The translations under genes and the position numbers were made by a program. The notes below the pieces were generated by a model. That model saw nothing but the letters and a program-made list of their open reading frames with translations, was not told where the DNA came from and did not search any database. A DNA stretch of 64,000 nucleotides from Proales similis (lineage: Eukaryota; Rotifera; Eurotatoria; Ploima; Proalidae): the NCBI GenBank assembly GCA_019059635.1, contig JAGVRJ010000002.1, forward strand, positions 2,542,001 to 2,606,000, given 5' to 3'. Each line of letters starts with the position of its first letter. The stretch's first letter is position 1. Of this stretch, positions 29,049 to 59,157 are shown piece by piece.

Positions 29049-30560
29049 ATGAATTATCGAGGAAGTTCGAAGCTCGTTCTGATCGCTCTCAATTCATTCG
29101 CCGGTAGAGGTAGACAAGTCTTTTTCCGCGAGTTGTTGCCTTTTATTTAAAGCAAAAATGAAAACCGCATGAGCTAGCCCAGGCCAGATCTGCTTACGGT
29201 CTGTCTGCGTACTCCAATGAGTCTTTTGCGAAGTACAGAGACAAAGTGCGAAAAGAAAGCGACCGAGGTAAATACTCTCGACTCGACTCGCTTGACACTT
29301 TTTGAAGGAAACAAATGTTTCAAGGCCAAGTTAAGAGCAAGCTTGAACAGTCGAGCTCCGAGCCAAGCGATATTCAGACTTTTCTATTGCTTTGCGACTC
29401 GGAAAATGAGTTCAAGTTGGCTATTGATTCTTTTAAACGGTTGGTTGCTGACTCTGAGGCAGAAACTTGAGCAAGACGAGTTGATTTTAAATGAAAATGA
29501 TTCAAGTGCCAACAACGAGTTCAAGTTGAGCGAAAAGTTCAAATTTGGCGAGCGACTGGTCCGCTCTTGTTTGCTAACAAACAATCAAAGCATTTTGTTT
29601 GAATGCCTTCAAGACGAGGTAATGCTCCAGCTGACTCTCGAAACGTTTCGATTGCTTTCAAACTGTCTTTTTCGCGCCGAAAGCAAATCTCATTCTCTCT
29701 GCTCAATCAGTTCAACTCGTTTGTGCTCATGAACTATCTGCTGAAAGAAAAGCGCTACGATGACGTGCTGATGGTCTTTAGGAAATTCGTTCGGCAGCTG
29801 GAGACTCGCTACCAAACCGAGCTTATAAGCCAAGCCTATTACACGCGAAATCAATCACAAGCGATACCGTTCGGCAATCTCAGAGTTGCTCTGGAAGCCC
29901 TACTCCGAATTGTAAAAAAAGTCAGACACGCTCAAGTTGAATAGTTTATCCAACTCAGTCTAAAGAACACAGCAGGGTCGCTCGACGAGCTGAAGCAGAT
30001 TCTGAAATTGGCCGACAAGTTCAATTCTTCGCTCAACAACACATCGATCTGCATTTGTTTCCTTTTAGCCATCAATCAGGTAGCTTCGAATGTTGAGCTG
30101 ATCAGCTAGAGCAACTTGACAAATCTGCTGGTGCTTAAGAACGATGCACAGTTTGCATTCGAACTGGTGCACAGGCTGAAGAAATGGAATCCCACACTCC
30201 TCAACAATTTGAAGGCCATTGCACTCTCTAAACTGGACCGCTTAAGCGAGGCCTACTTCTACATTGAGACGCTTATCAATGAGCTTCACGTGCTGCCCAA
30301 CAAAGACGAGTACAACGCTCGTCTCTTCCCGCTCACCGTAAGTGCCAAGCCAGTCTTTTGATCCTTGACTGTGCAGGTGACCATCGACGCTTACTTCATT
30401 CAAGTATAAAGCATTCAGCTCGGCTCTGGACGCCAGTGATCTTGATCAGGTTGATAGGCGCAGATTCGTCAAGTTGCGCGAAGTGATGAGGTCACGATTA
30501 GCTCCGAAAGACCTGATGGAATACTGCACTTTCGAGGAGGAAGAAAAACTCGAAAATTGA
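29049..30560 (+). CDS. PTCD2-like pentatricopeptide protein, copy B (probably mitochondrial)
   Basis: Eight exons: 29049-29103, 29178-29267, 29325-29439, 29507-29618, 29684-29911, 29966-30079, 30110-30337 and 30405-30560, 365 aa. The N-terminus MNYRGSSKLVLIALNSF is a good mitochondrial presequence. The helical body carries FLLLCDSENEFKLAI, KFKFGERLV and LKEKRYDDVLMVFRKF, matching copy A (2929-4509) and PTCD2. The first five junctions lie at the same places and phases as in copy A, and exon 6 is 114 nt in both; copy B lacks one later intron. Its stop is 66 bp from that of eRF1 on the other strand. Confidence 0.75.
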
Positions 30561-30626
30561 ATTTTAGACCAATTTATTCAACTGAATTTAATTGAATGAA
30601 TGAATTCACTTCTCAGATGAAAGTCT

Positions 30627-32030
30627 TTAATAGTCAATCTCTTCGTCTTGAAAGTCAATTTGGTCGTCGACATCAATGGGACATTCAAATCTTAGAAAGG
30701 CGCCAAGTCCGCCAAATCCTCGACAGAATTGACTGCCCTCTGGCGTCTGTTCGCCGACCATCTCTAGTCTGGACCCGAATGCAGCATGCTGTTCTGTAAG
30801 CCACTCGAGCAAATCTTGATTACTTTCCACTTTTTCGGTTTTCGGCTTTTGAGGAAAAATTCAACTTTTTGAAAAGAGCTGGCATTTCATGGTTCTTACA
30901 TCGATCGAAGAGTTCGGATCTTGATTCTGGTTGAACAGGAGTTCTCTAGTTGATCCGTCGCCGTTCGATTTGGCCACAATTCTTGTAGCTCTCAAATTTT
31001 CCCAAACGAGCAGAACTTCGACTGCGCCTTGTTTCAGAGCAGCAAGGGTCTGTCGGTGGCCGAATATGACTAGACGCGAGTCCTTGGCGATTTCTTCGAA
31101 GTATTGCGCCAGAATTCGCCTCTCCTCAATTAAGCGAATACTCTGCATGCAGTCAGAGGCCAAGTCGATGGCTTGGTAAAGGCCTTGCTCGCCGCCATAT
31201 GCGACATCGACCTGCTTGAGAATGCTCTTTCTCAGCCTTTCGTCGAGCAGGTCCGATTTGCTCAGCTCCGTTTTAAAGTCGGCACTGCCGGCCAATATGA
31301 TTCCTTGTACGTTGACCTTGTCCTCGCTAATGAAGCAGCAAACTGCTTGTTCAGCCACTTTTCGTACGTAATTGTGACGTTTTTCGCTTCGAATGTGAGC
31401 GAAACGAGTTGCCGACTGGCCACCGGCACGGTGCTTGCAGGGTAGGTCCACCTGAATTTTGTGCAGCGTTTGACTGGCATTGCCTTGCACCAATGCGAAC
31501 AAGGCGCCTTTGCCGTCGACTACAATGAAGCCGTATTTTCTCTCGTCTTGAATAAGCGACTTTAATATTTCGGTGTGAAATCGCTTGTCACAATTGTAGA
31601 GCAATTTGCTCAACGGCTTAGGAGGCTCCAAGTCGAGTACCAAGCGTTTTTCCTTTTCGGCTTCGGTGCTCGCGTAGCCGGCAAATATGATGAGACCGTT
31701 TGGCGGCGTAGCATTGTAAAGTCTCAATCGAGACTGAATCGACTTGAGCGCCGCAATCACCGACTGTCTGTTCTCGCGTGATTTTATGTTGGTGGCCGTG
31801 CCTAGCTCTTCGTTCACTCGTTTAGCTATTAGTCAGAGCTGGTAGCCTCGGGGAACATACAAAGTCACAAGACTCGTTGCCTGTCTGTTGAATTCGATTA
31901 TTAAATAGAAGAAAGCGATCGTCCAAAATGCCTCTCACCCTTCGAACTCATCTAGCTCAGCAATAAGCTTTTTCATGCTTGACACACTCAAGCGTCCATT
32001 CTCAACTGTTTCTTTATTCGCTGCTGTCAT
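30627..32030 (-). CDS. ETF1: translation termination factor eRF1 with an in-frame TGA
   Basis: Exons 32030-31939, 31884-30900 and 30845-30627, with two 54-nt introns; 431 codons including the internal TGA (437 aa in human). All functional motifs are present: TATNIKS for stop recognition, YNCDKRF (the YxCxxxF motif), RAGGQSA for peptide release, the RHNYVRK-type central helix and the acidic C-terminus. The frame contains TGA at 31835-31833 between LYVPRGYQL and LIAKRVNEELG; both sides align to eRF1 without a gap. Termination there would leave 47 residues and no activity. The next codon is CTA, so readthrough is plausible. The protein is more divergent than eRF1 usually is. Confidence 0.85.
31830..31835 (-). 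promoter_or_regulatory. in-frame UGA-CUA, possible programmed readthrough site in eRF1
   Basis: On the minus strand the codons read CAG CTC TGA CTA ATA GCT. UGA followed by CUA is the established leaky stop context in animals, used for example by LDHB, MDH1 and AQP4. The aligned residue in human eRF1 is serine, and TCA is one base from TGA. No GT-AG pair removes the TGA while keeping the conserved residues. Confidence 0.5.
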
Positions 32031-32267
32031 TTTTCAACGATAAATAAAATCAAAGTTTGAATAGAGCCCCGCTCGTTTTGGCCTTTAAGTATCAGTTAAT
32101 TGCGCGAATGATTGCAAAAGATTGTGTAACATTCTCTGCGCTCATATAATTGGCCAATTCCAAATTCATAATTAAAGCAGCTTTTGAAATATTTATTTTC
32201 TTGGGAATTAATTTTTTCAAAAACTTTGGTGAAAAATTCTGATGATTTTGATGATGGTCTTGACGAT

Positions 32268-33371
32268 CTAGACGTTTTGATTGCAGCCCAGAGCCATGCC
32301 GTTCGATTGAAGCCAATCGAGATAGTTGGAAACTCGTGTGTAGATGCTTTTGAATAAAAATCAAATTTTTTGGGGGGTTTAAATGAAATGCAAACAAAAT
32401 TGAACCACGCTTACGATGGTTTGCCCGGCCTGGCACAACCTTCGCCGTACGAAGTTAAGCCAACGACCATGAAATCGTTTTCCGCGCTCAAACCCGGCTT
32501 TTGACTGTAAAGGCCTCCTCCCGAGTCGCCTTTAGTGATAGCGGCTTTAATAAACAACTCTTCGCTTAACGAGTTCTAAAGCTTCTTACCCATACACGTG
32601 TCCTTGTGACCGTCAAGGTCACCAGCACAAATTTGCTTCTTCCAGTTCTTGACCATGCTCGGATAAGTCAGCTCGCATAGTTGGCTGTGATAGGTTTCGA
32701 TATCCACATATTGAAGCTCATTGGCTGGTCGGCTATTTTCGGACTCTAAGCCCCAGCCAACGGCAAAAACTGTTTCGCCTTGCCATGGCCTCACACCGTC
32801 TTCAACTGACGGCAAACAAGCGAACTGAATTCCTCCTCTAGCAATCACAAACTCGTTCAACTCGACGATGGCAATGTCATTGAGGAGATTTTTTGAATCA
32901 AAGTTGGGATGCTGGAGAAAACCTTATCAGGAGACCGATAGGATTAGAAAGCAGTCGATTTAAAGCTTACTGAAATCACGGTCTTGGGTGCCAGCTTGAG
33001 AATGTTTGCAGAAGGATTATGAGCTTGGTTGATTTGACTTAGCTGGCGGACACCAATGTGAATTGTGTGCGACTGGATTGGTTCTTCGCCAATGCAAGAA
33101 GCGGCTGTTAAGACATTCTTTTCATTTATCAGCACTCCGGCACATTTAAATGACCCTCGCCACGTGATCATGACTGCAGAGCCAAAGGATCCGTTGGGAG
33201 CCCGAGTGCCACCAACTATCTTCGACCCGGGTTCATACGGACGACCATGGACGTTCGCTTTTGAGTTGATTTAAATTTAAAAGAAACAAACAGCGACCGA
33301 AGAAGAGAGGTGTTACCTTGAATCGACAAGATAGCAATTACAATCGACTTGAGAAAATAGAATGGCAACAT
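32268..33371 (-). CDS. secreted trypsin-fold protein, catalytic His replaced by Ser (serine protease homologue 1)
   Basis: Exons 33371-33317, 33257-32971, 32911-32590, 32529-32415 and 32346-32268, 285 aa. A signal peptide (FYFLKSIVIAILS) is encoded by exon 1. The mature start IVGGT follows. The catalytic triad reads LTAASC (His lost), NDIA (Asp kept) and GDSGG (Ser kept); Asp189 in KDTCMGDSGG would give trypsin specificity. Without the histidine it should not cleave peptides. The signal exon ends in phase 1, as in the other three genes of the cluster. A TATAAATA lies at 33428-33435, about 57 bp upstream of the ATG. Confidence 0.88.
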
Positions 33372-33746
33372 TTCTTATTCTTGGTTTCACTTGAGTTGGA
33401 CTGAAATTACTTAAATTGCGCGAGCGCTATTTATAGGCGGAGAGAGAATGTTTAATTCTTTTTTAAAACCACCTGAGCAACCAAGCGCACACATTTGTAC
33501 GCTTCGAACAAAAGAACTAATGGCACTACAAATCCAGCTGAGTTGCGCAATCTTAAACATCAGCTGTAGAAAAAAAACCTGAACCAAATAATTTCAAAAG
33601 TTCAGCTCTTAAGATCGGAACTTTGTTAAAAAGTCCTCACTCGAGAGTGATCGCAACAGCCGTTGCATAAGCGAAATGGAATTGTTCTTAAATCTTCTTT
33701 TATTTAAATTAAAGTAGAATTTGAAAGCAATCAGTGTCTCGGTGGA
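33372..33746. promoter_or_regulatory. spacer with TATA box of serine protease homologue 1
   Basis: On the minus strand TATAAATA at 33428-33435 stands about 57-64 bp before the start codon of the gene at 32268-33371. The rest is AT-rich without a gene. Confidence 0.55.
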
Positions 33747-34940
33747 TTAGAACAAAGCAGAGAAAAGCAGCGAAAAGCAAAGGAGAATTAGAAATGAATC
33801 AACTCTGGGGACATGTGAAGAGCTCTGTGGCAAATCGAAGCCCATGTCAAGGGCAGTACTTCTTTTCCAGCATGAACTGCGGTAGCCTTTCGATTGGAGC
33901 CAGTTTATATACGATCCGATTCGAGTGTAGATTCTAAGATCGAAGATTTTGACGAATGCTTCGATCCAAATTTAAGAGCCCAAACTCACCCAGGCATTCC
34001 TTTTCTTGCGCAACCGTATCCATAGGAGGTTACGCCGGCACTCACCAGGGTCTCAAGTCTTCCAACTCTTTCCATTACATAAAGACTGCCGCCCGAGTCT
34101 CCTTGGCAGGTGTCTCGGCCACCAGTTATTTGACCCGCGCATATCTGATTGCCCCAGTTCTTTTTCATTTCGGGATTCACCGTTCGGCAAGAGGTCGGAT
34201 GATAAACTTTGAGTCTAACGAACTGAAGAGTAGAGGAGGTTGGACCGTCTTCTCGCAGCGAGCCCCAGCCAACAGCGATCGACGACTGCTGGGTGCGAGG
34301 AAAAATGCTCGAAGCGGACGGTAGACATGCAACCTTAATTGTTGTGCTCTGCTTTACGCTGGTGCCCAAACGAAATAAAGCGATGTCGTTGATTAAATTG
34401 AACGGATCGTAGTCTTCATGCTTTAGATGAACGGCAAATTAAAATTCGCTCGATTTGACCGGAAAATATAAACAGTGCACTCTTACCAGAATAACTTGAG
34501 AAGGCACATATTGAAGAACGCCAGGTGAGTCCAAATTTCGCCGGTCGTGCGCTCCCAAATAAATTGTGTAGACTCTTGGATTACTAGTGCTGCCTTCGAC
34601 ACAATGACCAGCCGTTAGGATGAGATCTTCTTGGATGAGAGTTCCTCCGCAAATGAATGAGCCCGATCGGTAGATCAATGCTGACGCCGGAAAACTTCCC
34701 GGACTTGCTTGGCTCCCACCGACAATCTTATTCAAATCGTCGTCGAAAAGCATTTTTAAAAAAGCTTAAGATAGTCTGATTGTTGAACTTTGCCTTAGAG
34801 TGTGAGACAGACAGAGTCTACTTACGAGCAATTGTTGAATTTGCTATTTCAACTGGCGCGTCATCGGAACAGCTAGCTCCAGCAATAAGCATCGATATGA
34901 TTAAAAGAGAATATTTTCGAAATTTCGATCTGTCGAACAT
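33747..34940 (-). CDS. trypsin-like serine protease with complete triad and hydrophobic C-terminus
   Basis: Exons 34940-34826, 34764-34487, 34420-33990 and 33933-33747, 336 aa. Signal region KYSLLIISMLIAGASC, then IVGGS, LTAGHC (His), NDIA (Asp), RDTCQGDSGG (Asp189 and Ser195). This is the only one of the four cluster genes with an intact triad, so it should be an active trypsin-type enzyme. After the last protease helix the chain continues for about 40 residues and ends in FLILLCFSLLFSALF, which looks like a GPI-attachment signal or membrane anchor as in prostasin-type proteases. A TATAAATT stands at 34992-34999, 52 bp before the ATG. Confidence 0.88.
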
Positions 34941-50499: not shown

Positions 50500-53400
50500 A
50501 TGCATCAGGCAGCGCACACCGAATTGTCGACTTCAGTCAACGCATCGTTCCAGGGCGGCGGCAATCAGTTCTTCTACGAGCCATCTCCCGACTTGGATAA
50601 CCTAAACAGTACAATGCAGTCGACAAGCGAAGGAGCAGCAGAGTTTCAAGCCAAACAAAACGTAAGCGCATTTGTGTGTGCGTGTGTGTGTTTGCTTGTG
50701 TGGGTAGTGATTTCTCGCCGATTTCATGCTGTCAAAAGCAAATATCGCTTTCTCGCCCTTCCTAACTCACAACCTGTTGCGCTTGATATTTGCCTAATAG
50801 CGGCGTAGAGCCAGATCGGCGGCTCAGGCCTCCATCACTCTATTGACAGTGAAGTTGAGGGGATACGTGTGTGCTCGAGTTGTCTGTGTGCGAACAGAGC
50901 AGTCAGAGCAAGCTAAATGCCAATAAGAAGTTTGAGGCCACTCCCATGTTGAGAACGAGTACGAAAATCGAACAGATTGCAAACATGTAAACACTCGATC
51001 GGGCGTGTGCCGTTGACTTGCAATGGCCGCAACGGGCAGGACTTTATTTGTGGTTTAATCTGGCCAGCAAACATCAACTGAACTCGTTTTGCAACGAGCG
51101 CCCATTAGTCGGGCCAATAAGTTGCCCCATACTCACGCTGCTTAATATTATTTAATCTGTTGCCTATTTGAATTGAAACGATTGAAAGAGAGGAGCAAGA
51201 AGAAGAAGAAGCAAGCCGCCTCGAAATCTCTATATTAACAATGAGCTGGCTCAAGGGTCCCCAACCGGGGATTAGCACACTAACTTTGTTCTTTCGCCTA
51301 TTTTTTCCTCCTCTTTCTCTCTCTCTCTCTCTTACGCCTCTGCGTATCGACCTATTCTCGTCCAGCGCGCGCGCTTTTTTCTTGTTGTTATCGAACAGTG
51401 TTTACACTGCAAATCCATTCAAAGAAGCCGGTTGTTGCAAGCGTTCTCTATCACTTTTGCCCACTAACTTACTTCACTCACAATCTTACGGGCGTCCACT
51501 CAGCAAATTCATAATGCTCGTTTATTCAAGTCTGATGTAATGGAGTCGATGAACAACCTGGCCGAGCAAGAGGCAAAAGCGCCCGAGTGCCAAGGCTGCA
51601 ACGCTCCCATACACGAACGATTCTATCTTCAAGTAATGGACAAAAGCTGGCATCTAAATTGCCTGCGATGCGTGGACTGTAAGCTCAGTCTTGACTCGCA
51701 GCAATCCTGCTTTGCCAAGGACGGATTCATTTATTGCAAAGACGACTACTACAGGTAAATAGGAGGAATTTCACTTATTCACGCCAAGAAAAAATGGGTC
51801 TACTGAGCAGCCGTCAAGAGAAGGGCGGCGATCAGCTCGCGAGCGATAAATCTCGCCGGCAATCAGATCGCGATTGAGATCTCTAATTACCTTTATCTTT
51901 CGGCTGCTCACATTCCTCTCAAAGTTGAATTGTTTTTCTTCAACTTGTAATTTGCTTGGCGCGTTCGTGCTCAACAACAATTTAAGTCTAACAAACCTTA
52001 TTCATTTTAATAGGCGTTTCCCACGTCACTGCCACGGCTGCTCTCAATCTATCAATCCAAACGAGCTGATCATGCGCGCACGACAGCACGTATTTCATAT
52101 GCATTGCTTTAAATGTTCGGCTTGTGACCATCAATTGAATACTGGCGACGAGTTTGGCATCGGCAAGGACGGCACCATATTCTGTCGAACGCATTACTTT
52201 TTCCATGTGCAGCCCTATCATCATCATCATAATCAACCACAACAGCCGCATCCACCACAACCAGCCAAACAAGACCAATTCCAACAAGAGAATTTTGCCT
52301 TCAGCAGTCCTTTCAAACACGAGCCATATTCGACGAGCTATTATGAAATGAACAAAATGCCGCCCGTGAGTCTGAGTCCTCCGGCAACTCTAAACAGTGT
52401 ATCGCCCAACATAAACAGCCCCACTCAAAAGGGTAGACCCAAGAAGCGAAAATTGAATTCGTCGACCGAGTCGAACAAGAAGTTTGGCTGCAAAACGAGC
52501 GTACCGGCAGGCGGCGCCGATGCCGCCGACCTGTCCAATTCGAATGCATTGAGCTCTGTCAGTCAATCAGGAGCTAATCCGTGCGAGACGTCGGCCAGCA
52601 TGTCGGATCAAATAAAAGGCAAGCACGAAATCGGTATGAAGAGCCACTCGATGCGCATCCATTCGCCAAACGCCAACAAGAACTGTGATGGTAAGTAAAC
52701 GAAACAAGCACGAAACGCACGACTCCATGACGCATGGCTAAGAACTTTGAACATGAAACAAATTCATGATCACATGCCCATTTCTACTTGATCGATACGT
52801 GCGTGAAGTGTGCATTCGAATATTTCGCTCTTGCCTTTCTGTCGCTTTAATCTGCGCCATCCGGGCATCTTGTTCTTGATGTCGCGACCGGCTTTATTTA
52901 TTTATTTCCTCTTCGTTTGGTGTGTGTGTGTGTGTGTGTGTTCGAGCGAGCGCTCTCTGAGTTCTCTCAGTTTAAATCGGAGAAACACGACACCAGGAAG
53001 CATCAGCTCGATCCAATGCGAATATTATCTCATATTTCAAGTCACGAGATTATTATAGGCCGCATACAAGCCAAGTACAAACTGTCCCTAATTTGGAAGC
53101 GAGTCACGCATTTGCTTCCTGCCCCATGAATTGTTCGAATCAGTTCCGCACGCATTTTTTGAATCCTGCCATCAATGCGTCACTTGGCACTCGCTTATGA
53201 AACTTAAGATTACATCTCACTCACACTCATTCTCGATTTGGCTCGCTAATCATTTCTATTTGAAACAAAGATTACTTTTCGGAAAACGATGACGACCTGC
53301 TCGACACGAGCAACGCCAATTCACAAGCGTCCGAAAACGGACAAATCATGCCAGGCTATGGCAGTTCGAACGGCAAGCTGACCAGCAGTGGAGGAGGTGC

Positions 53401-54109
53401 CTACTACGACTCGGTCGCTGCCGTTGCAGCCGCGGCCGCCGCTGCCGCTGCGGCAGCTCAAAGGCAAAAGCGAATGCGCACTTCGTTTAAGCATCACCAG
53501 CTGCGAATCATGAAGTCTTATTTTGAACTCAATCACAATCCAGACGCTAAAGATCTCAAGCAGCTATCGCAAAAGACCGGCCTTTCCAAACGAGTTCTTC
53601 AGGTCTGGTTTCAGAATGCCCGCGCCAAGTTCAGGCGAGGTCAGAACAACGTGGGCGATCAAGGCGAGCAGCATTCGCCTACCGGCACGCCCAACGCAGC
53701 AAATAACAGTCAAAACGTCTCATCTGCTTCGTCCACTTCATCTAATTCAACCATTTCGTCGGACTATAGCAGCGCTCTAATCTCGCACGGATCACATCTT
53801 CATCATCACCACAATCAAAACCACCAGTCTCTTTCTCTTGACATCATGGACGAAAACTCGTCTCAGTCTCTCAAAGATCACCTGTCCACAGGCATCAACT
53901 TGGATTCCTCTTACATGCTGCTGGGCGCGTCAAGTAACACTAGCTATCATTCAATGGGCCTTTACTCGTCATCCGCATCCAGCTCGTCAAATCAAATGCT
54001 CAACCAGTCGCAATATCACCTAATGATGCAAACGCCCAACCAACATCTAAATGGCCAAGGACCTGATGCCCTTGGTGCTGGCCTGATGGTCGACAATCTA
54101 TTGCTGTAA
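50500..54109 (+). CDS. ap: LIM-homeodomain transcription factor, apterous/LHX2-LHX9 class
   Basis: Exons 50500-50661, 51531-51754, 52014-52690 and 53271-54109, 633 aa. LIM1 (CQGC to CKDD) and LIM2 (CHGC to CRTH) are complete two-zinc domains, separated by an intron. A long Pro/Ser/His-rich linker with a basic GRPKKRKLN patch (likely nuclear import) follows. The homeodomain KRMRTSFKHHQLRIMKSYF continues through NPDAKDLKQL to KRVLQVWFQNARAKFRR, which is the LHX2/9 signature. A run of alanines lies just before it. The class controls limb, wing and neuronal identity with the cofactor LDB/Chip. Confidence 0.95.
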
Positions 54110-55601
54110 ATAGCTCTGCACCACGATTCGCACATCTAACCCTTGGCCCGTCTTCAAAGCAGTCTTGTTTATTGACTGCCTGTGATGCGATGTTCAGACC
54201 AAACGCAACACACGCCCCGAGCCCACCCACCGACTCTGGGCTCCGATCAAAATTGCCTTTTACATGGCCAGCAGAATTGTTATTTATTCGACTATCATCA
54301 ACATCATCGTCATTATCATCATCATCATCATTTCTATGTTTCAATTTGTGAGGTCCGACTCCTTATTTATTAAATGTCATTCGAGTTTCCATTATTTTTC
54401 TTTCCTATCGTTCTAAAAAAAGAAAGCTTTTCCTTCGCTTGGACTTATTTGCCACACAGATTCTCTATTTATTTTTAATTGTGTACCTCATGAGAGCGCT
54501 AGAAAGAATATCATAATAAACAAGCAAAAAAGCAAACTGGCAACGTGCATACATTGTAGCCTCAGTCGTTTTTGCAAATCAGACTTGATACAGGCAGAAA
54601 GCTGGCTTCTATTGGCTGGCTGCAGCCGCCTTCATGCGATTGGCCTCTTAAAGATTCGCGCATCAGCAAATGTTTTTACATGTGCGTTTCTACTCTGCCT
54701 CTTTTGGGCCTCCCATTTTCCTCACTTTTTATTGATCAGTGTCTCCAATATCGGATAGAAACAAATGGGCCGTTCATAACAAATTGTGTGCGAATACAAA
54801 TTTGCTTTGGATAGGATTAGTTGATAAGTTGGGTGAGATTGACCTTCGATCGGGCGTTAAAGCATGCCAAATAGGGCGTGACAGCTTGCGATAGTTGGTC
54901 TTCTGCCACACTTGCTGCGCTTTTAAGGTCGTTGGTTCCGTCCGAGCGGTAACCAAGTTACAATCACTATTTGTGAGACGCCGTCATTCAGCTTCGAGTT
55001 CCGTGTGAATAACGAGACGAGAATGCAACTTGGCTTCCTCCGCTAAGCTCATTTCTCGTTTGAGAAAACAACTGGCCGTTGAATTTGGGGGTCGAACAGA
55101 TTGTTTTAACAGTTGGTCCCGCTATCGGTCGCATCGACCTCCTCATGTGCAATTCAATATTTATTGTTGAGCCATTAAATGAAGGCAGTCCAAGCTAGAG
55201 GCAGGAGAACAATCTCAGGTCAAACTCAAGGGAATCTATCTCTTTAAAACATGAGCGTGTCTTGTCTGTTTGAATCGGTCTCTCGATCTTATAAATAAGA
55301 CATCAGAATGGCTTTCGTACTCTGACTTGGGCGTTGAGTTTATTAATGAATTTACTACGCGCTAAATGTACATTTTCTTAAACAACTCGAGCAAGTGATT
55401 GGTGAGAAAATAAATTTCAAAATGCCAATATTCAAGAAAGCGTTGGAAAGGAACAAAATAAGAAATAAAGCGAATAAAGCGAATAAAATAAAGCGAAAAG
55501 CGAATGTATGAATGAGGGTCGTGAACAAAGTCGAAATGCAAATGCGTAATGGAATCCGTTTGAAATTAAAAGCACGAAATATTACACTTTGGTGATGTCG
55601 C
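54110..55601. other. spacer between two convergent LIM-homeobox genes
   Basis: 1.5 kb containing both 3'UTRs. A TCA/TCG trinucleotide tract lies at 54293-54330 and AATAAA-like signals at about 54514 and 55480. No gene seen. Confidence 0.45.
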
Positions 55602-57093
55602 TCAAAAAGATCTAAAAGGCGCAGAAGCTGCCAAAGATTCGAAATGAAACGATTCCGGAATGAAGGAGCCGCCGGTTCCGATAAAGGATCTCATTTCGTG
55701 CGGTTTCAAATTTGTGTTGGCCATATGCTGCTGCTGCTGCTCCTGCTGTTGGTGATGGTGAGAATGATGGCTCTGATGTTGCACATTTCGGCCGAGATGA
55801 TCGTCAGGAAATTCGTCGCTCTGGTAATTGCTGCTATTTTCGTCTTCGTCGTTCAGGTCGAATTCGTCGTGCGTCGAGTGCGCCGATTTAGGGTCGAACA
55901 AAGGCCTGCTCGTGTTGAGCGCTAAATGACTCGACGACGATTTGCGCTGTTTGGCGCGCGAATTCTGAAACCAGACCTGAAGCACTCTTTTCTGTAGACC
56001 GGTTCGCTCGCTCAGCTCCTTGAGATCTTTTGAATCCGGATTCTGATTGATTTGAAAGTGCGCTTTCATTATACGCAGCTGCTGGTGCTTGAACGATGTT
56101 CGAACGCGTTTCTTCTTCTCGCCGCCGCCGCTGCCGCCCCTATTTTCGTATCGATTTGCACCTGTCTTTAACAAGACACTTGAAGCATTGCGCCTCTTGA
56201 AATCGACGCTGCCCGAATCGTCATCCGACGTTTCAGCCAGATCGATCGGCCTCTGATTTAGAGGCAGCTCTATCGAGCCATTTGTCTGGCACTTGTTCTC
56301 TACAGTGAACTCTAGACCTCTTGAAAGTTCGAGCTCTTGTTGACGCGCCACTGGGACGTTTGTGTTGTTGGTGATGATTGGTGTCCCGCTCGTCACCGTT
56401 GTCGGTGTTGTGCTGGCTGATTGTGTGTAGGGATCTGTGTCATAATAAGAAGAAAAAGCGATTAGAAACGGGCCCAAACAAAGCGAACGTAGACACTTGT
56501 GATGCTCGCGACGAGCTTTTCAAGGGCGCAATTGAAACGATTTAAACAAATAACCAGCTCAAGTGGACAGTGTTCAATCGCGCTCTTGATCGTCGCCCGT
56601 CATCTGACTGAAGTCTACTAAACAAATTGAGTTGAACAAATGTCTGATTTACCTGTTGGGGCCACGGATTGACAATAATGCTGACCGCACAGAATTCTGT
56701 CACCGTGAATGCCGTACGGCTGACCTGAGGCGATGAGGCATTGGCATAGTGAACACTTGAAGCAGTTGACGTGATAAATTCCGTCCTCAATTTTGAGAAC
56801 GTAATCGCTGGGCTCGATTTGAACTGCGCACGTCTTGCATTGATGAATAACGAGTGAAGTGGACGTTTTAGCGCAGACCGACCGAGCGCTAACGTAGTCT
56901 GACGGGCAGTAGAGTTGGCCGTTGAATGCAAAACATTTCGAGTGAAGATGAAGCGCCTCAGAGCACTGAGAACATCTGAGACATCCAGTGTGCCAGAACT
57001 GTTCATTACCGACCGAGAGGAAGTACTGATCGTTGATGAACCTCTCGCACCCGCGGCAAACCATTGACATGTTGCGAGGCCTGTCTAGACCGG
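55602..57093 (-). CDS. second, divergent apterous-class LIM-homeodomain gene (first exon not found)
   Basis: Exons 57093-56653 and 56434-55602 (218-nt intron, phase 1), about 424 codons. Both LIM domains sit in one exon: CRGC to CPSD and CKTC to CGQH. The homeodomain KKRVRTSFKHQQLRIMKAHF, NPDSKDLKEL and KRVLQVWFQNSRAKQRK keeps the LHX2/9 pattern but differs from the neighbour at many sites, notably NSRAKQRK at the recognition-helix end. A His/Gln-rich tail follows. The 5' end needs an upstream exon ending in phase 1, or translation from MSMVCRGC. It lies tail to tail with the gene at 50500. Confidence 0.88.
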
Positions 57094-59157
57094 CTTGAAA
57101 TGAGAGTTTAGAGAAAGGCAACTGAGAACGGTGCCAAATCAGAAAGTGAATATTGGCCTCAGAAGCCAATTAGACTTAATTAAACTCGACCTCAACTCCG
57201 ACTCTTTCCGACCACGAGCGCGAGCGTTTTGCTTTTCAAGCAACAATAACAAATAAGTCTGCTGTTGAGAACGACGACACAGGTTGGAAGTTCTCGGCAC
57301 AAAATATCAGACAAAGAAAACAATGAAAAAGTCGTTCGGATGCGCGCGTGCCGCCCCACCGCTACACCCGTCGAATGTGAATGGCTGCTGGCATTTCGTG
57401 CCTTATGTTTATATTTACAGAGATGCTTATCTACGAGCACACTATGAAACTTGAGCAAGCTTCACGCGGCCCATGCATTCGCAGTGCTTTGTCAGAGAAT
57501 AATAGACGCGCGCCTCATGATGCCCGCTTGACCATGCTCAATTGGTGGTGCTTCAAGAGTGGTCCACTGCCTTCACTTTCGTTCTGCGTCCAGATGTGGA
57601 CTTAATTAAAGAAGAATATGAGTGACGTCATGCGCTACGCTATCGCTGCACGCATCTCCTCCGTGTGTCCGGTTTCAGCGAATAGGCGTCAGGAGAGAGA
57701 GAGAGAGAATAAAACGCTGAATGAGGAAATATTCAAGAGAAGAATTCTTATTAAATCTGACTTCTTATCTGATTGCATAACGAACTGATTCTAAAATAAG
57801 AGAAAGAAAAAAACCAATCCGATCTTAGCAGATGCGTGCCACTCTCATTCTAGCTCACTAGAATGAAGGAAGGCTGCTCGAATTTATACTAACAAGTCGA
57901 TCAGCAATTAAAGCGAATCAATGTCAAGCAGCAGCTTGCATGCTCGATTCTGATTAGGAAGCGCGTGTTGTTGTTGTTGTTAAAGATATATGAGCAATAA
58001 TAGTGATGGAGAAGAAATCAGAAGAATTAGTCAATCAAACTAAGCTTTCAGTGAGAAAGTCGTTAATCGCCAAAATAAATCGAAACTGAATACAGAATGC
58101 GCGTTCGATTTCCGGTTGCCAGGACGGCATTTAAGTTCTCGCTCTGTTCGGTCGCAACGGGCCTTGAGTAGGAGCAAAGAAAGCGAGCGCGAGAGAGAGA
58201 GTAAACAAATCCGGACCGTGCAACTTGATCGAAAGCGGCTACTTGTTCTATCTGGTTTCGGTTCTTCTAATTCCAGATGAGAGGTAAGGCGGCAGAACGA
58301 GAGGCGCACCAATCAATCGACGAGTGGAGATGGCTCTCGAGCAGCGGCGGCTACCTGGTGGGTGGTTCGCTCCTACTAGTTCGTTTCATGAGGCTACTCG
58401 AATTAATGATTGGCACTGCGCTAGAGAACAAGGCAGGAGCGGTCGGAGGCGCTTGACTCGAACCAGTCTTAATTAGAGCTAATTGAGATACACCACTTCT
58501 CGTCGTTAGTGGCCGTTCATTGATCTTCAACCAAGCCGACATCTCTGTGCGCTCAAACACACACACACACACACCCACCCTGACCACAGAGACTTGGTCG
58601 AGGAGAAACAACCCGCAGTCCTTGATTTAATTAAGCTCTTTGAAAATGATCAAGATAATTATGAGCGAAATGTTTTCTTTAGCGACTACTTCAGTCTGAG
58701 CTTCAATCGGGTGCCTGCGTTTTCTTTTATTATTAACAAGGCCACCAACCGCCAAGATCGAAGTAGCAGCAGCGTCTTCATTATTGCGTTGCAGCAGACA
58801 TCAGACGCCAGTCATCGGCCACTTAGAACTTTCGCCTTTTTTCCGCTTATTATTACTCGATTGAATGCGCCGCTGAGCGCGCGCGAGTCTGGCGATCGTG
58901 AAGGCCGACAACCAAGTTGCCAAGTAACTTTTCTCTAATGGCGCTTAGTTAATCCCATCTTGGTCCAACTCTACTCGCTCTGAAGCTCTCTCTCTCTCTC
59001 TCTGATTGACTACTCGGCTTGATCCAATAATTTCGAGCTGTGAGTTTGATTAAATCTCGAATTTAATAATCTGAGTCGATAAAACAACACAAACACCATC
59101 ATCGGTATTGACTGGAAGAAATAACAAGCCAAACGAGCAGAGAAATAAGTCTAATAA
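57094..59157. promoter_or_regulatory. 2-kb region between the second apterous-class gene and a divergent membrane protein gene
   Basis: It should contain the missing first exon of the LIM gene, but no ATG with a phase-1 donor stood out. GA, CA and CT microsatellites lie at 57689, 58559 and 58987. No other gene is supported. Confidence 0.4.

Follow-up and report, generated by a model that had tools for sequence, protein, structure and literature searches.

Bacterial release factor 2 (RF2; prfB) is produced through a +1 frameshift, and its UGA is read by RF2's own product. We describe here an eRF1-type gene of the monogonont rotifer Proales similis, located in a 64,000-nucleotide stretch of DNA (contig JAGVRJ010000002.1; hereafter the window), that resembles prfB, a gene discussed in PMC3521657, in carrying an early in-frame UGA by which the capacity for termination could be sensed; it differs from prfB in that readthrough, not a frameshift, would be used and the UGA would be read by the product of another, intact eRF1 gene. 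The closest case that we found is that of Mimivirus R726 and Megavirus mg280, for which the accessible part of PMC3521657 proposes autoregulation and reports an experimental test of readthrough. Like the window gene, these genes are of the eRF1 type, carry a 5' in-frame UGA-C and keep a long downstream frame; unlike it, they are viral, also need a frameshift, and have the UGA in common between the two viruses (PMC3521657). The window gene, in contrast, is an animal paralogue without a frameshift, its UGA is absent from the relatives that cover the site, and its readthrough is predicted. With the bacterial and viral genes it shares an in-frame stop within its own coding region, but it is not the cell's working copy, as a separate intact eRF1 is present.

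The plant eRF1-1 circuit (Nyiko et al. 2017, as summarized in the available portions of PMC9293766 and PMC6755094) is alike in having a leaky stop with a downstream intron and a long stretch behind it, and in coupling nonsense-mediated decay (NMD) to eRF1 as the regulated gene; in the window gene NMD would be the predicted outcome. In plants, however, the stop that leaks is the one at the normal end of a functional eRF1, whereas here the stop is codon 48 of a paralogue and termination would yield no factor. Human MDH1 and LDHB, as far as the text of PMC5133446 and PMC12233894 available to us goes, are similar in stop context and have Trp among the inserted residues, but there readthrough adds C-terminal extensions to complete proteins, while in the window gene almost all of the protein is encoded past the stop. 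In a literature search covering titles and the beginnings of abstracts, with most subscription journals outside its scope, we found, among the papers listed, no animal eRF1 whose coding region contains an internal stop, and we found nothing on rotifers together with readthrough and stop codons, and nothing on eRF1 in rotifers.

Gene structure and the in-frame TGA

The features of the window gene are given below in window coordinates, where "eRF1B" is a name coined here for a fast-evolving, rotifer-type eRF1 clade:

32030-30627, minus strand: eRF1B-type gene with three exons, whose product aligns with eRF1 across almost its full length
31939..32030, minus strand: exon 1, with the start codon, 30 codons and two further bases
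31885..31938, minus strand: intron 1, 54 nt, GT-AG (GTGAGA...CAACAG)
30900..31884, minus strand: exon 2, with the in-frame TGA, NIKS, YxCxxxF and GGQ
31833..31835, minus strand: in-frame TGA, codon 48 of 431, aligned with human eRF1 residue 46
31830..31832, minus strand: CTA directly after the TGA (UGA CUA), followed by A at +7, not the consensus G
30846..30899, minus strand: intron 2, 54 nt, GT-AG (GTAAGA...CAAAAG)
30627..30845, minus strand: exon 3, with the C-terminus and the terminal TAA
30573..30578, minus strand: AATAAA polyadenylation-type signal 3' of the terminal stop, read by eye

The gene model spans 1296 nt (431 codons plus the terminal stop) with a single internal stop at codon 48, and this coding frame contains no further stop and no frame break. 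The start, the terminal stop, the splice dinucleotides and the polyadenylation-type signal are all intact. Intron 1 occupies the position of the single intron of the intact eRF1, intron 2 starts 933 nt past the TGA, and the base at -1 of the TGA is C. A first-pass annotation of this DNA had noted an in-frame UGA-CUA in a minus-strand eRF1 gene within 31827-31841, a 47-residue product upon termination, and a residue-for-residue alignment with human eRF1 that placed a serine at the site. These observations hold: the TGA lies at 31835-31833 and the CTA at 31832-31830, the stop is codon 48, and the solved human protein, aligned without gaps, has Ser46 opposite it. The later motifs that the annotation listed (NIKS, YxCxxxF and GGQ) and the C-terminus are present as well.

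The exon-2 read-through product matches Pfam eRF1_1, eRF1_2 and eRF1_3, in order and above cut-off, and the window copy contains NIKS, YNCDKRF and GGQ, with altered residues flanking GGQ. By its domains and motifs the window gene is of the eukaryotic class-1 release factor type, for which peptide release is the predicted activity. An AlphaFold model of the exon-2 product was of moderate quality (pLDDT 74.4, pTM 0.52), and a Foldseek search with this model ranked eRF1 chains first at low whole-chain TM-scores (0.37-0.43, top 16); the predicted structure adds little to the sequence evidence.

Directly upstream of the gene lie two trypsin-like serine protease genes (window ~32290-34920, minus strand), members of a family that is clustered in this genome (87 matched stretches). 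Elsewhere in the window (51874-57169), two adjacent LIM-homeodomain-type genes, named from ORF translations alone, face each other on the plus and minus strands.

An intact eRF1 and the eRF1B clade

We searched the genome (15 contigs; 32,716,893 bases) with exon 2 as query and obtained two loci, the window gene and an eRF1 on contig C1. A family search with eRF1 domain 1 gave three frames, the third of which, on contig 7, is probably a Pelota gene, a putative name. The C1 eRF1 has 439 residues and one intron, is uninterrupted, and contains no internal TGA. Among the best 120 of 3694 database matches, canonical proteins are at most about 93% identical to this intact copy, and none is an identical match. 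The two P. similis copies are identical at 210 of 418 residues in their best local alignment (~50%). The presence of an intact canonical eRF1 bears directly on the autoregulatory loop that the first-pass annotation had proposed, in which low eRF1 would raise readthrough and thereby restore eRF1: as written, the loop is unsupported, and what could be left of it is, at most, control of a divergent paralogue by canonical eRF1. What survives of the overall reading is a leaky stop in a long-selected eRF1-type gene; what does not is the premise that this gene is the animal's sole eRF1.

Two UPF1-type zinc-binding domains were also observed in the genome, at G000:C8:506086-506538 and, as a weaker match, at G000:C9:1375311-1375745; the latter is perhaps a divergent UPF1 paralogue.

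A database search with part of exon 2 (120 of 505 matches listed) yielded P0125, P0159, P0207, P0239 and P0237, the first four of which have the unusual residues E68, K156 and A161 in common with the window copy. A profile search built from six sequences (120 of 6608 matches listed) added P0256, P0259, P0268 and P0270. Together with the window copy, these nine database rows make up a 10-row clade supported at 100/100, and an 8-row clade without P0207 and P0239 again received 100/100, although these values may be inflated, as most of the branches are long and the tree program warned of long-branch joining. In a first tree, built without eRF1B rows, the place of the window copy among rotifer-type rows was unsettled and its branch was at the program's limit. 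Forcing the window copy to pair with its own genome's eRF1 gave a borderline result in the AU test (p 0.047). Together with the signature residues described below, the trees place the window gene in the eRF1B clade and not with its own genome's eRF1, the rejection of that pairing being borderline. The clade adjoins canonical P. similis-like eRF1, and the group enclosing both includes bdelloid (Rotaria) and acanthocephalan (Pomphorhynchus) sequences; from this placement we infer that the eRF1B database rows come from rotifers.

A clade signature of 25 positions (W48, E68, K156, A161, I195 and others) was defined from five of the nine clade rows. The window copy keeps 13 of the 25, the intact copy 0 of 25, and any non-clade row at most 6 of 19; retention in the relatives is 75-96%, a range to be read with the fact that five of the nine themselves defined the signature. 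The signature position W48 is the stop in the window copy. A duplication specific to P. similis was also considered and rejected, as the tree and the signatures place the copy in a wider clade. No other clade member has so long a branch as the window copy (2.21 vs 0-1.15), and in each of two lists 0 of 120 rows lie nearer to this copy than to its intact counterpart, a count that misleads because the window copy evolves fast and that the clade-specific residues correct.

Some database records drew attention in their own right. Judged by eye, the eRF1B protein P0239 (171 aa) seems to leave the frame of its close relative P0256 shortly before it ends; a contig error could account for this, as could a further copy in decay. 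An internal segment is repeated in two eRF1 records, P0243 (Adineta steineri, 642 aa) and P0003 (Culicoides sonorensis, 567 aa); both are probably assembly or gene-model artefacts, and their high search rank is perhaps due to the repeat.

The stop site in relatives and constraint on the frame

The residue at the stop site could be read in 243 of 313 aligned homologues. Ser (136) and Ala (81) are the most frequent, followed by Pro (11), Trp (4), Thr (3), Asn (3), Leu (2), and one each of Gln, Ile and Gly. Trp occurs in 4 of the 4 eRF1B rows that cover the site and in 0 of the 239 other homologues that do so, a comparison that spans four of the nine eRF1B rows, the remaining five not covering the site, and in which the relatives are known as proteins, not as DNA. 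No in-frame stop is seen among those four eRF1B rows, all of which have Trp. The ancestral codon 48 was therefore probably TGG, from which TGA would be derived via one transition, and Trp, rather than the Ser named in the first-pass annotation, is the probable clade residue that the stop replaced.

The frames of the eRF1B relatives open at different positions: P0259 and P0270, which come from different contigs, at 50, two codons past the site; P0268 and P0256 at 58, ten codons past it; P0125, P0159 and P0207 at 36; P0239 at 1; and P0237 at 113. The openings at 50 and 58 may reflect a stop at the site in those sequences, or equally an intron. By alignment, 26 non-clade ORFs open at position 53, which an intron may explain. 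On the other hand, position 36 is where all nine listed canonical ORFs that carry the P. similis-like QIAPV motif and open between 32 and 62 begin (by eye). Searches for DNA of the eRF1B relatives returned only six archaeal loci from genome contigs and nothing from viral contigs.

A comparison of the two P. similis copies over 428 codons showed that first, second and third positions differ at 40.7, 27.8 and 67.3%, respectively. Where both copies have the same residue in a four-fold codon, the third base differs in 49 of 66 cases, compared with a fraction of 0.756 expected at saturation. Since four-fold sites are near saturation while only 27.8% of second positions differ, the frame has been long constrained as protein, beyond what synonymous sites can record. 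The claim that selection kept the downstream frame is thus upheld as long-term constraint with no further lesion; the signal covers the gene's whole history and not specifically the time since the TGA arose.

Conservation was also scored by column, using only columns with at least five of the nine clade rows. Of 54 columns that do not vary in eRF1B and reach at least 98% conservation elsewhere, the window copy retains 52; of the 36 invariant in eRF1B only, it retains 25; and at 98 of 219 variable columns it has the residue of the eRF1B majority. Conversely, among 189 columns with 99% conservation in the best 120 of 3694 homologues, it is altered at 58, including G183R and R184A beside GGQ; all 8 of the other eRF1B rows that span the segment retain R184.

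In neutral simulations without indels, the share of runs in which the frame gained no further lesion was 34% when divergence was 2%, 9% (8.6%) at 5%, and 0.6% at 10%; with one indel per ten substitutions, the corresponding values were 21% at 1% and 4.5% at 2%. Under these models, neutral divergence since any death of the gene would be limited to about 2% with indels, or to a value between 5 and 10% without. A pseudogene would be expected to show more than one disabling lesion or a decayed frame, and the window gene has one stop in 1296 nt; as there is no second lesion, the death of the gene, if any, was recent. The first-pass annotation had held that a separate intact eRF1 together with decay of this copy would refute it. 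The intact gene does exist; the copy has no second lesion, though it is the fastest-evolving member of its clade.

Explanations for the stop at codon 48

UGA-CUA is a high-readthrough motif, and the human MDH1 context gives 4.34% readthrough in HeLa cells, according to the available text of PMC5133446 and PMC12233894. The window gene has this context (TGA-CTA at 31835-31830), with A, not G, at +7. As far as the same partial sources report, the residues inserted at a UGA by readthrough are mostly Trp, Arg and Cys, both in yeast and in vitro, and for human MDH1 they are Trp and Arg (PMC5133446), readthrough is highest with A or G at -1, and UGA-CUA-G readthrough differs more than 15-fold between the human genes MDH1 and LDHB (PMC12233894), so that the motif by itself does not set the rate.

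The context is rarer than chance expectation. The window and 20 stretches of 10 kb together supplied 105 open frames with a length of 150 codons or more, and TGA-CTA accounts for 0.2% of the 12,007 single-base nonsense changes possible in them; its share is 1.1% in the intact eRF1 and 2/181 (1.1%) in the window gene with codon 48 taken as Trp, and CTA is used at 9 per 1000 codons. The 105 frames end in TGA (51), TAA (38) and TAG (16), none of them in TGA-CTA, although some of these ends may be intronic. Neither the frame ends nor the intact eRF1, which lacks an internal TGA, give a hint of an altered genetic code.

Our best, if tentative, explanation of the locus is that full-length eRF1B would come only from those few ribosomes that read through UGA-CUA. 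At the codon-48 UGA, canonical eRF1 would compete with near-cognate tRNA-Trp. As UGA readthrough commonly inserts Trp, decoding by this tRNA would often restore the family residue. Termination would leave a 47-residue peptide and no release factor, and would mark the eRF1B mRNA for NMD, to which it is likely open because an intron lies 933 nt downstream of the stop; UPF1 and UPF3 domain matches were found in the genome. Owing to the competition between canonical eRF1 and tRNA-Trp, eRF1B output would be inverse to canonical eRF1, rising as termination capacity falls. The mode of control would be at most cross-control of a paralogue by canonical eRF1, not a self-loop. Several observations speak against readthrough gating: the TGA is seen in no relative, the four that cover the site having Trp; the intact eRF1 makes the window copy dispensable in principle; the copy exceeds the other clade members in branch length, with 13/25 signature residues, 58/189 conserved columns altered and changes flanking GGQ; and the stop has A instead of G at +7 and C at -1, amid flanking folds no better than shuffles.

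A recent nonsense allele is a close, near-equal rival to readthrough gating and quite possibly the right account. The stop would then be a young loss of function in a fast-evolving, dispensable paralogue whose decay is starting, either fixed species-wide or confined to the sequenced strain, and any readthrough would be incidental. The canonical eRF1 is intact, the Trp of the relatives makes the stop probably derived with one transition enough, and the window copy is the fastest-evolving member of its clade and altered beside GGQ, all of which suits such an allele. It is less easily reconciled with the lack of a second lesion in 1296 nt, which bounds the neutral divergence since death, with the undamaged start, terminal stop, splice dinucleotides and polyadenylation-type signal, and with TGA-CTA itself, which a random nonsense change seldom produces.

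An assembly or sequencing error, with a true codon TGG and an ordinary sense eRF1B, is improbable. A single base separates TGG from TGA and the relatives have Trp, but a substitution, as opposed to an indel, at exactly codon 48 is in our judgement rare a priori, and the remainder of the gene is open.

Sense decoding by another route, through A-to-I editing, splicing round the stop, or selenocysteine, is more improbable still. Editing (UGA to UGI, read as Trp) would yield the family Trp, but the edited adenosine is preceded by G, a poor neighbour context for ADAR, and folding gave no strong duplex; there are 26 frame-keeping GT/GC-AG pairs inside exon 2 (over the range scanned) and others from exon 1, but the exon-2 pairs delete 10 to 49 N-domain codons, the exon-1 pairs delete more, and a 35-nt look-alike intron (GTATGT...CTAATAG) shifts the frame into a stop; and the genome has a tRNA-Sec match (79.2 bits), but the family residue is Trp. 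No SECIS element or any other Rfam match was found in 29500-33000 at E up to 1. RNA folds flanking the stop, at and past the site, are no stabler than those of shuffled sequences (z -0.4 to -1.2, four stretches). A scan for bacterial-type promoters and terminators returned nothing, and its models, being bacterial, are not meaningful for an animal.

If readthrough gating does operate, the wider proposal is that eRF1B in P. similis became a termination-capacity sensor by the change of a Trp codon to UGA-CUA, with NMD as the fate of the mRNA otherwise, and that such a gate may recur in other species; taken as a whole, this proposal is rather unlikely. If true, it would make eRF1B the first release factor that we know of in an animal to be gated by a stop within its own coding region, and would add a fourth setting, after bacteria, giant viruses and plants, for recoding-based self-control of release factors. 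It would also exemplify a one-base route by which a Trp codon becomes a near-cognate stop that readthrough can restore. Should the TGA instead mark a dead allele, rotifers would still have a second eRF1 that is old and evolves fast; this gene is new to us and poses the question of what role a second termination factor has in these animals.
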